From Chloroflexota bacterium (GTDB lineage: Bacteria > Chloroflexota > Dehalococcoidia > Lucifugimonadales > UBA3495): a stretch of DNA of 63,996 nt. Position 1 is the stretch's first letter; each line of letters opens with the position of its first letter. Below are positions 44,718 through 49,391 of the stretch, piece after piece. The DNA lies in the NCBI GenBank assembly GCA_028873965.1, contig JAPPMU010000020.1, positions 1 through 63,996 on the forward strand, in the 5' to 3' direction. Both the position numbers and the translations under genes were made by a program. The notes under the pieces were generated by a model. It worked only from the letters and a program-made list of their open reading frames with translations, did no database searches and was not told the DNA's origin.

Positions 44718-45143
44718 TCAGGATGGGCGCTCCCGGCGCTCGATCTCGCGTTCCTCGGCCTTGTGGCGGAGGGGGCGACCCTTGTCGGGCGTGGGGTCTT
44801 TCACCTCGCCGTAGATCTGGCGGCCTTCGTGGTCTTCGGGGAGATGCTCGGTGATGGGCAGACCTGCCTCATTCACGAACAGCAGTCAATGGCAATACTT
44901 GTAGATCTGCATGTCGTCGCAGGCGCAGACCCACGTGCGGTGCTTGACCTCCTCTTCCTTGGACGGGTAGAAGCGACAGGGACAGAGCGGGCGGCCGATT
45001 TCGTCGACGTTCTGGGCCAGACCCAAAATCACGGCTTCGGCGACTCCTTCTTCCGGATGGGTGAACGTGCCTGATTTTTCGCAATATCGCTCTACGAAAA
45101 GGCGCATCCTGGCTATTGATTTTTCGCTGGGCTGGTCAGCCAC
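44718..45143 (-). CDS. Ferredoxin:thioredoxin reductase catalytic subunit, selenocysteine-containing
   Basis: The frame starts at GTG 45143 (GGAGG seven bases upstream) and contains an in-frame TGA at 44886-44888, read here as selenocysteine 86. Before it stand C54-P-C56, sixteen residues, C73-A-C75, eight residues and C84-H-U86. This is exactly the CPC-x16-CxC-x8-CHC spacing of the FTR catalytic subunit, with the last Cys encoded by TGA. After it the frame continues LLFVNEAGLPITEHLPED...DPTPDKGR to a second TGA at 44718-44720, giving 141 residues. The extension has strong coding character with G/C-rich third positions. In the plant enzyme the equivalents of C56 and U86 form the redox disulfide beside the 4Fe-4S cluster, and the other four Cys bind the cluster. 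The protein should pass electrons from ferredoxin to thioredoxin; the selenium is expected in the redox pair. No variable subunit gene is adjacent. Reading the TGA as a stop would leave an 85-residue protein lacking an essential residue. Confidence 0.85.
44854..44872 (-). promoter_or_regulatory. Bacterial SECIS-like hairpin behind the TGA codon
   Basis: In the mRNA, 13 bases after UGA, AUG-A-GGCA pairs with UGCC-CAU (seven base pairs, one bulged A) around a GGUC loop. The core GCAGGUCUGC is identical to that of the E. coli fdhF SECIS as I remember it. Its GGU lies 22-24 bases after the UGA, against about 19-21 in fdhF. This is the signal that SelB needs to insert selenocysteine. Confidence 0.8.
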
Positions 45144-45174
45144 TTGGGTCCTCCTCGATTGTCGGTCAGTCCGG

Positions 45175-45391: not shown

Positions 45392-45586
45392 ATGCGCATT
45401 GCGGGACTTGGCCTGACCGAACTACTGATTATCCTGCTGGTGGTGCTGCTGATATTCGGCGCATCCCGGCTGCCGGGCGTGGGCTCCGCGCTGGGCAAGG
45501 GGATACGATCGTTCAAGACCTCGGTGACGGGGGAGGACGACAAGCCGGCGGCGGACCGGAGCGCCTCGGAAGAGCAACGCTCGTAA
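45392..45586 (+). CDS. tatA: Sec-independent protein translocase TatA
   Basis: The 64-residue product has the TatA pattern: a short N-terminal segment, one transmembrane helix ([21 protein letters not shown], about residues 8-28, with the FG hinge) and an amphipathic helix [17 protein letters not shown] charged tail follows. It forms the pore of the twin-arginine pathway with the TatC and TatB-like genes encoded convergently downstream. ATG 45392 follows GAGGAG by about ten bases; the open frame begins earlier, at 45236. Confidence 0.9.
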
Positions 45587-45612
45587 CCGCCCAAGGGCAA
45601 CCAAGTGAACTC

Positions 45613-45645
45613 ACGGGCTCGCCGGTGGCGGGCCCGTTTCGTTTT
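45613..45645 (+). terminator. Rho-independent terminator of tatA
   Basis: ACGGGCTCGCC pairs with GGCGGGCCCGT (11 pairs, one T-G) around GGT, followed by TTCGTTTT. It lies between the convergent tatA and tatC genes. Confidence 0.85.
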
Positions 45646-45648
45646 GCG

Positions 45649-46488
45649 TTATTCGCTGGCGGGTTCGGCGTTCAGAGCGGAGTGCTCTCGGTTGCGCCGG
45701 CCGGCCAAGCGGGCGAGGAGGACGCCGACCTCGTAGAGCACAATGAGCGGACCGGCGACTATCGCCTGGTTCAGCGGGTCGATGGTGGGCGTGATCGCCG
45801 CGGCGATCACAAAGGCGGCGACCAGCCAAAACCGTCGAAACCGGGCAAAAGTACGCGCGTTGACCACGCCCAGGATGGCCAGCACGTACATCACCAAGGG
45901 TGTCTCAAAGGACAAACCGAGCCAGAACAGCAGGCGGATCATGATGTTCACGAGGTTGCTGATGCGGATGAGCGGGTCCGCAACCTCGCTGCCGAATCCG
46001 ATGAGGAAGCTGAGGGCTGGCGGGATCATCACGAAATAGCCGAAGGCCATGCCCGCGACGAAAGCCAGCAAGGCGGCGGGCAGGAACGAGAAGAGGATTT
46101 TGCGCTCGCGGGGTGTTAGTCCGGGCGCTACAAAGCGAATGGCGTTGTAGAGGATCACGGGCAGGGCCAGAACAAAGCCGCCCAGTAGCGATACCCGGAC
46201 GGTGATGCTCAAAAACTCGGTGATTTCGGTGCGAACCGGCTTGAACCCAGGGGTGGCCTCGGTGGGATCGGCGGGTCGGAATACGCCGAGGCCGAAGTCC
46301 TGGTAAAAGCGAAGAGGGTTGACGGTGTCCGTGGTTGCGGCGTGCTGAGCGGGCCACAACAGAACCGCGTAAATTTCCTCGTAGAAGTAGAAGCAGACCG
46401 CCGTGCCAATGAGCAGGGCGATGGTGCAGACCAGCGCGCGGGAACGCAGTTCGCGGAAATGCTCCCGCAACGGCATCGACTGGCTCAT
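45649..46488 (-). CDS. tatC: Sec-independent protein translocase TatC
   Basis: The 279-residue product has six hydrophobic helices and the family signatures MPLREHFRELRSR at the N-terminus (residues 5-17), FLSITVRVSLLGGFVLALP and PGLTPRERKILF in the middle, and the LSFETPLVMYVLAILGVV block (about 193-210). The periplasmic loop between helices 1 and 2 is longer than in E. coli TatC (about 70 residues). It recognises twin-arginine signal peptides. It is 11 bp downstream of the TatB-like gene. Confidence 0.93.
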   Translation of the reverse strand: MSQSMPLREHFRELRSRALVCTIALLIGTAVCFYFYEEIYAVLLWPAQHAATTDTVNPLRFYQDFGLGVFRPADPTEATPGFKPVRTEITEFLSITVRVSLLGGFVLALPVILYNAIRFVAPGLTPRERKILFSFLPAALLAFVAGMAFGYFVMIPPALSFLIGFGSEVADPLIRISNLVNIMIRLLFWLGLSFETPLVMYVLAILGVVNARTFARFRRFWLVAAFVIAAAITPTIDPLNQAIVAGPLIVLYEVGVLLARLAGRRNREHSALNAEPASE

Positions 46489-46499
46489 CGGGAGTAGCC

Positions 46500-46811
46500 T
46501 TATTGCCGGTCGGTAGGTGGCGAGGCCGGCGGGTTTTCGTCGGCCCGGTTCTGGGCTTCCAGGTGCGGAGGAGTCGGCACCGGGTCGGCCGGCGGCGACG
46601 GGGGCGCGGCCGGCGCCGGGTTGTCCCTGGCTCGTCCACCGCTCTCGTCGAGCGACGCGGCGTCCATGATCTCGGTGAAGGTGCGTCGGGCTTCGCGGGC
46701 CATCTTGCCGATGGTGCGGGCGACTTCAACCGTCTTGCCCGGGCCCAGCGCAATGAACGCGACGGCCAGGATGACCAGCAACTCCAGGGTGCCGATGCCG
46801 AAAACGTTCAC
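46500..46811 (-). CDS. TatA/TatB-like translocase subunit
   Basis: The 103-residue product has an N-terminal membrane helix (IGTLELLVILAVAFIALGPGKT, about 6-27, with the GPG hinge) and an amphipathic VARTIGKMAREARRTFTEI helix. A Pro/Asp-rich tail of about 50 residues follows. The length and tail suggest TatB, but a second TatA cannot be excluded. The start is GTG 46811. It lies between the RNA methyltransferase-Maf fusion and tatC, all on the minus strand and tightly spaced. Confidence 0.8.
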   Translation of the reverse strand: MNVFGIGTLELLVILAVAFIALGPGKTVEVARTIGKMAREARRTFTEIMDAASLDESGGRARDNPAPAAPPSPPADPVPTPPHLEAQNRADENPPASPPTDRQ

Positions 46812-48976: not shown

Positions 48977-49061
48977 ATGAGTACCATCCCGGTCGCCGAG
49001 CGCGGACGATTGGTGTCCCCGCCGCGCGCGGCCAATGAGTGTCTATCCTGGAGGAATTAGA

Positions 49062-49391
49062 ATGCCCGAACCAATCGAAGTGAACGGACAGAACTGGCAA
49101 AGCGTCGTGATGGACTCGGATCTACCCGTGATGGTGGACTTCTGGGCGGAATGGTGCGGGCCCTGCAAGATGATCGCTCCGGCCGTGCACGATTTGGCGC
49201 TGGAGTACGAAGGCAAGATGAACGTGGCCAAGCTGGACGTGGACAACGCGGGGGACATCGCGGCGCAGTACGGCATCCGCAGCATCCCGGCGCTGATCTT
49301 CTTCAAGAACGGCCAGCCGGTGGACCAGGTAGTGGGCGCGCAGCCCAAGCCGGCGCTGAAGCGGAAGATCGACGCGGTGCTGGAGAGCTAA
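49062..49391 (+). CDS. trxA: Thioredoxin
   Basis: The 109-residue product is a canonical thioredoxin: the active site is VDFWAEWCGPCKMIAP (about residues 24-39), followed by KLDVDNAGDIAAQYGIRSIPALIFFKNG with the cis-proline. ATG 49062 follows GGAGGAATTAGA; the open frame begins at 49035. It should be the electron acceptor of the reductase encoded at 44718 (inference from pathway). A tRNA-Sec gene starts 13 bp after its stop with no terminator between, so the two are probably co-transcribed. Confidence 0.95.
   Translation: MPEPIEVNGQNWQSVVMDSDLPVMVDFWAEWCGPCKMIAPAVHDLALEYEGKMNVAKLDVDNAGDIAAQYGIRSIPALIFFKNGQPVDQVVGAQPKPALKRKIDAVLES

Follow-up and report, generated by a model that had tools for sequence, protein, structure and literature searches.

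A UGA codon predicted to encode selenocysteine at a redox position of a ferredoxin:thioredoxin reductase catalytic chain from a Chloroflexota bacterium

Introduction

What is encoded when an in-frame UGA takes the place of the last cysteine in the motif of a ferredoxin:thioredoxin reductase (FTR) catalytic chain? This question is raised by a gene, here called ftrB, in a stretch of 63,996 nucleotides from a Chloroflexota bacterium (contig JAPPMU010000020.1 of assembly GCA_028873965.1), the whole of which is referred to as the window. FTR is the textbook case of an enzyme that draws electrons from a [4Fe-4S] cluster to split a disulfide. Of its two redox cysteines, it is the first that attacks thioredoxin and the second, its partner, that interacts with the cluster. 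According to the accessible parts of two publications, two cysteines of FTR form a redox-active disulfide (PMC2398784), and the [4Fe-4S] cluster helps to reduce this disulfide (PMC6006212).

A preliminary description of the locus stated that no characterised selenoprotein of the FTR type was known. This holds in so far as none that is biochemically characterised was found in the open-access literature searched, but a selenocysteine (Sec)-containing FTR had already been predicted in 2008 from two Global Ocean Sampling sequences, one of them with two Sec residues, as given in the accessible text of PMC2398784; going by the same text, the second sequence may be a single-Sec form. Sec-FTR also appears as one line of a table in the available portions of PMC9312934 and of PMC13188914. 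As a predicted kind, Sec-FTR is already known, and the single-Sec variant with a motif ending in CHU, of which no description was found in the open-access literature searched, appears to be new.

Results

The ftrB gene reads through 85 codons, a TGA at codon 86 and 55 further codons to a TGA stop at 44720-44718 (Table 1). The preliminary description had placed it at 44718..45143; the coordinates stand, with the correction that the gene is on the minus strand, and the plus strand does not yield the FTR. Its reading of the frame proved accurate, as in translation the last motif cysteine is an in-frame TGA at the spacing given there, the frame runs on for 55 codons that are under constraint (dN/dS, see below) and the other five motif cysteines are present at positions 54, 56, 73, 75 and 84. 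These are arranged as CPC (54-56), CAC (73-75) and CH-TGA (84-86), giving CPC-x16-CxC-x8-CHU. The corresponding CPC-x16-CxC-x8-CHC, which we take to be the pattern of FTR catalytic chains, is also visible in solved FTR chains, and ftrB matches this six-residue motif with five cysteines and a UGA at the sixth place. The product scores 76 bits with PF02943 (FeThRed_B; gathering score 22).

Table 1. Positions of ftrB and associated features in the window.
Feature	Position	Strand	Basis or remark
ftrB, FTR catalytic chain	45143 to 44718	minus	141 codons via one UGA; GTG start, TGA stop
Ribosome-binding-like GAGGAGG	45150..45156	minus	7-13 bases upstream of the GTG at 45143
Cys56, predicted partner of Sec86	44976..44978	minus	alignment; chain position 57 of 1dj7_A
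UGA codon 86, predicted Sec	44888-44886	minus	final residue of the CHC motif
bSECIS-like hairpin	44845..44881	minus	folding and comparison of TGA and Cys genes
Thioredoxin trxA (WCGPC), candidate substrate	49035..49391	plus	TIGR01068, 127.6 bits vs 96.8
tRNA-Sec, UCA anticodon	49404..49496	plus	66.4 bits vs gathering score 47

Comparison of structures points to the same family. All ten Foldseek matches at E <= 0.001 are FTR chains (31-47% identity, best E-value 2e-07), obtained with an AlphaFold model of moderate confidence (pLDDT 68.7, weakest at residues 70-83). Residues 3-91 align without gaps with the two best solved FTRs, 1dj7 and 7bzk, and in this alignment the last CHC cysteine of 1dj7_A, at chain position 87, falls opposite query position 86, and chain position 57 opposite query position 56. 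A selenosulfide between Cys56 and Sec86, which the preliminary description had proposed, would fit this alignment. By homology, the ftrB product is named an FTR catalytic chain, with a predicted [4Fe-4S] cluster and predicted reduction of a disulfide client. The variable subunit FtrA (PF02941) was found in 0 of 21 genomes including that of the window, with a positive Synechococcus control, and judged by this subunit ftrB does not belong to the heterodimeric FTRs of plants and cyanobacteria. Since FtrA is absent, the way in which plant FTR contacts ferredoxin does not carry over to this protein.

Thioredoxin is favoured as the client on three grounds. In six genomes (five with the Cys form and one, L061, with the Sec form), ftrB is followed 216-263 bases past codon 86 by a thioredoxin gene of the same orientation; 12 of 131 loci have a thioredoxin gene at most 1.5 kb from ftrB (some contigs being counted twice and some loci reaching less than 1.5 kb on one side); and trxA lies 3.9 kb from ftrB in the window and is also near it in L033, L034 and L036. 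Both client and electron donor are predictions. Another possibility, to which we give a smaller though appreciable chance, is that the Sec-FTR is real and serves some other disulfide protein, with thioredoxin being left to an NADPH-dependent enzyme. A candidate for NADPH thioredoxin reductase exceeds the cut-off in the same genome (349.6 bits, cut-off 343.45), as it does in 41 of 60 genomes with this one included, and FTR is therefore not the sole possible thioredoxin reductase; the low share of just 12 in 131 loci, the absence of FtrA and the FTR-like Methanosarcina acetivorans protein 4tpu, which is titled a disulfide reductase, also speak for a client other than thioredoxin. Against it stand the same-strand order of the two genes in six genomes, one of them with a Sec-form gene, and the linkage seen in the window and in three further loci. 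The idea that FTR replaces the NADPH thioredoxin reductase was also considered and is unsupported, given the candidate in the same genome and in 41 of 60.

Some further features of the neighbourhood were recorded. In the window, trxA and tRNA-Sec are both about 4 kb from ftrB; they share a strand, with a gap of 12 bases from the end of trxA to tRNA-Sec, and may be co-transcribed. Genes for lipoamide dehydrogenase, E1 and E2 (Pfam) neighbour ftrB in the window and in L033, L034, L036 and L039. An operon of ftrB with these genes is not claimed, as a 211-base gap with an 11-base inverted repeat and a promoter-like site (1 found, 0.3 expected) precedes the next gene. Beside ftrB, at 45392-46811, a tatA gene on the plus strand faces tatC and a tatA/B-like gene on the minus strand (Pfam), and this block recurs in L033, L034, L036 and L039.

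The meaning of codon 86 was addressed by comparing relatives. Among the genomes of the same genus other than that of the window, 11 of 13 have ftrB, and codon 86 is TGA in every one of these; the same TGA in these relatives, which include the one-contig genome G010, argues that it is not a sequencing error. In the two others (G003 and G006, each one contig), no FTR match was found in the genome, which indicates that ftrB is dispensable in the genus; both genomes exceed the cut-offs for selB, selD and tRNA-Sec. Over 108 motif-bearing loci, position 86 is TGA with no second TGA in 33, Cys in 70, and TGA together with a TGA at position 56 in 5, so that the alignment proposed in the preliminary description returns Cys in 70 loci and TGA in the other 38, and no residue other than Cys replaces TGA at this position in the 108. 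As these loci include some contigs twice, the distinct downstream sequences amount to 21 with TGA and 62 with Cys. The remaining five cysteines are kept in 193 of 193 CHU or CHC loci examined, repeats included.

Two findings that would have spoken for termination were sought, namely homologues that stop at the TGA and a lack of conservation beyond it. Relatives do not end at position 86, and the tail is conserved: for the 12 genes of the genus, dN/dS is 0.057 before the TGA and 0.069 after it, and 0.048 for codons 101-141. An in-frame UGA aligned with a cysteine of homologues and coding conservation downstream of it, by which a bacterial selenoprotein gene is recognised, are thus both found in ftrB.

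A SECIS hairpin after the TGA had also been noted in the preliminary description. According to the accessible text of PMC13188914, a bacterial SECIS has a G at the start of the loop, a loop of 3-9 nt, a stem of 4-16 bp, a spacing of 16-37 and a minimum free energy of at most -7.5. The window hairpin has the loop GGUC, a spacing of 21 nt from the UGA, at least 4 pairs and a minimum energy of -15.8 kcal/mol and satisfies four bSECIS constraints of that source, and its apical part, GCAGGUCUGC at 44858-44867 (minus strand), is letter-identical to that of E. coli fdhF as read from NC_000913. The rule as coded is loose, however, being passed by 75 of 76 TGA genes and also by 39 of 82 Cys genes, and the stability of the hairpin alone is unremarkable (z -1.09; 28 of 200 shuffles fold equally well), so that its energy was rejected as proof of a SECIS.

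The hairpin is instead backed by the contrast between TGA and Cys genes, which encode nearly the same peptide here and were counted as distinct 60-base stretches (76 TGA and 82 Cys genes reaching far enough). Around the codon of the invariant Gly94, 72 of 76 TGA genes have an apical stem of 4 or more pairs without interruption, which the other 4 lack, as against 5 of 82 Cys genes. The glycine codon in the loop is GGT in 71 of the TGA genes and in 15 of the Cys genes (Fisher p 1.7e-23, with relatedness not corrected), and stem and GGU loop codon occur together in 69 of 76 and 0 of 82, respectively. When codons were resampled synonymously, the mean stem of TGA genes fell from 4.49 observed to 2.16 pairs, with 0 of 100 resamplings reaching the observed mean, whereas in Cys genes there was no change (1.46 versus 1.53 pairs; 84 of 100). 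When each of nine lineages, named from the material of the first tree, was represented by a single gene, the observed values were still conspicuous, with a stem of 3.0 versus 2.13 pairs (3 of 1000) and an energy of -7.6 versus -4.4 (0 of 1000). The hairpin RNA is thus under selection solely where the codon is UGA.

If the UGA were a true stop, ftrB would yield a truncated product of 85 residues or be a decaying pseudogene. A truncated product is the outcome under the standard code, and the 85-residue frame would retain the four cluster ligands and Cys56; this account is nevertheless very unlikely in view of the purifying selection through codons 87-141, the TGA kept in the 12 genus genes and in many other lineages, the replacement of TGA by Cys alone, and a hairpin whose selection at synonymous sites is confined to TGA genes. 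That UGA86 is read by a near-cognate or reassigned tRNA (e.g., for Trp) is likewise very unlikely, as this idea has the open frame and nothing else in its favour and is opposed by the exclusive replacement of UGA by Cys, by the presence of tRNA-Sec, selA, selB, selD and the SECIS-like hairpin, and by the ends of 83 distinct single-UGA genes (TGA 28, TAG 31, TAA 20, with 4 running off or into unread bases), since ftrB of the window and 28 of these 83 genes end in TGA and UGA is therefore a stop here.

The genes for Sec insertion that the preliminary description had named for a genome search are all over cut-off in the genome of the window, namely selA (542 bits, cut-off 268), selB (357, cut-off 242) and selD (378, cut-off 125), the last with one in-frame TGA of its own, and the tRNA-Sec reported for the same window was recovered as well (Table 1). 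Among 60 genomes including this one, selB exceeds the cut-off in 56, selD in 57 and tRNA-Sec in 54. The machinery was rejected as a predictor of the Sec form, as it is near universal in relatives, Cys-form ones too; it is permissive and does not single out ftrB. From the tests run, Sec at the FTR redox position is supported as the best reading of codon 86, with Sec insertion itself being predicted.

The distribution of Sec and Cys forms was followed in a class-wide draw of 393 genomes including that of the window, 110 of which have a close FTR at E <= 1e-20. TGA is found at position 86 in 64 of these 110 (63 and the genome of the window), which makes the single-Sec form common in this class. 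Besides the window gene, 89 loci from 86 of the 110 genomes were examined, 63 of these genomes having TGA at 86 and 23 Cys only; for the other 23, the survey table lists no in-frame TGA, and the match in one of them (G636) excludes codon 86. Because some loci were chosen for a listed TGA, counts over fetched loci are biased and all 110 genomes serve as the denominator. One bin, G531, contains two CHC-type FTRs, one with Sec and one with Cys (L206 and L137), and could be a mixed bin. A pattern scan of 400 genomes of the phylum matched 4 including that of the window, two of which (G279 and G183, loci L124 and L125) were chance matches with no FTR frame. These two loci were removed after the first tree; the later tree leaves out L212, which is too short, and has proteins of identical sequence collapsed.

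In a careful tree of 84 distinct proteins with position 86 masked, 7 Cys/Sec changes were counted (bootstrap 7-8, not fully settled), and well-supported branches force at least 6. A quick tree of 166 proteins that includes the class survey gave 8 changes, only 3 of them forced by well-supported branches. Neither tree gives a direction of change; Cys is likely the older state. One large clade, with 62 proteins, consists of Sec forms throughout (support 89, not starred), and the genus of the window forms another Sec clade (98, starred), while elsewhere single Sec genes stand amid Cys genes. One Sec gene (L095) from a metagenome-assembled genome labelled Proteobacteria adjoins two Cys genes of Entotheonella. 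The closest Sec/Cys pair, L025 and L049, is 90% identical, and the nearest Cys relative of the window protein shows 83% identity. Many members of the large Sec clade (among L128-L206) carry CHULLFC, with an extra cysteine four residues past Sec, where the window protein has Val90.

Two other groups of FTR-like proteins with in-frame UGA were encountered. The double-selenoprotein family NF041072 (FtrB) is over cut-off in 25 of the 393 class genomes. The window protein, with one internal UGA, is not a member (44.8 bits, cut-off 160), and P0123 from another Sec lineage also scores below this cut-off (40.2 bits). In L230 (genome G473), the gene of a double-Sec FTR lies next to that of a Cys CHC form and points the other way. 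The second group comprises the FTR-like L222-L229 from eight genomes, which were chosen for a listed TGA; in all eight the motif ends in this codon (CYU), while in two relatives, L232 and L233, it ends in Cys. L222 combines FeThRed_B (75 bits) with a C-terminal rubredoxin-like domain (PF21349, 52.5 bits), a tail seen by eye in L223-L229, and a glutaredoxin gene (51.5 bits) lies directly upstream of it. L222-L229 look like a further selenoprotein.

Discussion

It is highly probable that ftrB encodes an FTR catalytic chain in which UGA86 is read as Sec, likely with the aid of the hairpin. What the analysis establishes is the gene with its UGA codon, the conservation around it, the statistics of the hairpin, the Sec machinery and the homology of position 86. 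In the mechanism that we infer, from Sec insertion and cluster to donor, substrate and the role of selenium, cysteines 54, 73, 75 and 84 would hold the [4Fe-4S] cluster and Cys56 and Sec86 would be the redox pair, forming a selenosulfide when oxidised. A low-potential donor, likely ferredoxin, would reduce the cluster; Cys56 would attack the target disulfide, with the cluster-side selenium at position 86 now bonding to the cluster in its place, and the product, reduced thioredoxin or a similar protein, would be set free by a second electron. Selenium at this second position would be part of a selenosulfide at rest and a cluster-bound selenolate in the intermediate, and, as a better leaving group and cluster ligand, it would ease opening of the resting bond.

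More tentatively, the CHU, the CPU/CIU and the rubredoxin-tailed CYU proteins might together represent repeated switching between sulfur and selenium in the class, with a one-electron intermediate that passes through Fe-Se and not Fe-S. If true, disulfide cleavage driven by a cluster would have a selenium-based variant, of which the two ocean sequences gave the first glimpse. With Sec and Cys enzymes occurring in nature at up to 90% identity, the role of the cluster-side residue would be open to direct testing, and selenium, having EPR, X-ray and redox signatures of its own, is usable as a probe at this residue. Standard annotation likely cuts the ftrB product at residue 85, and NF041072, with a score below cut-off, is the sole NCBIfam model that it touches. 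Among the best 120 of 2322 matches in the protein database, none is more than 83% identical to the window protein, although genes of the genus show 87-96% identity; full-length Sec forms may thus be lacking in this database.

Among the closest known systems are the Cys-type FTR chains 1dj7, 7bzk and 7c3f, which share the six-residue motif with the CHC histidine but have Cys where the window protein has the predicted Sec; the alignment with solved FTRs ends at residue 91, so that the conserved tail of residues 92-141 is unmatched. Plant FTR works with an FtrA subunit, according to the accessible text of PMC6006212, in contrast to the genome of the window, which lacks FtrA. The ferredoxin-dependent disulfide reductase 4tpu from M. 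acetivorans has an FTR-like core and is distantly similar (29 bits). The SECIS of E. coli fdhF is alike in the apical sequence and in its location just after the UGA, although the window hairpin lies three bases farther from the UGA and its lower stem is unlike. The CYU group has Tyr where the window protein has His before the UGA. Finally, the NF041072 family, from the same class of genomes, is also an FTR-like chain with Sec at the last CxC cysteine site, but it is 33-35% identical to the window protein over the aligned part (five loci) and places Sec at each of the two redox positions (CPU ... CIU) without the CHC histidine, whereas the window protein keeps this histidine and the sequence of an ordinary FTR.
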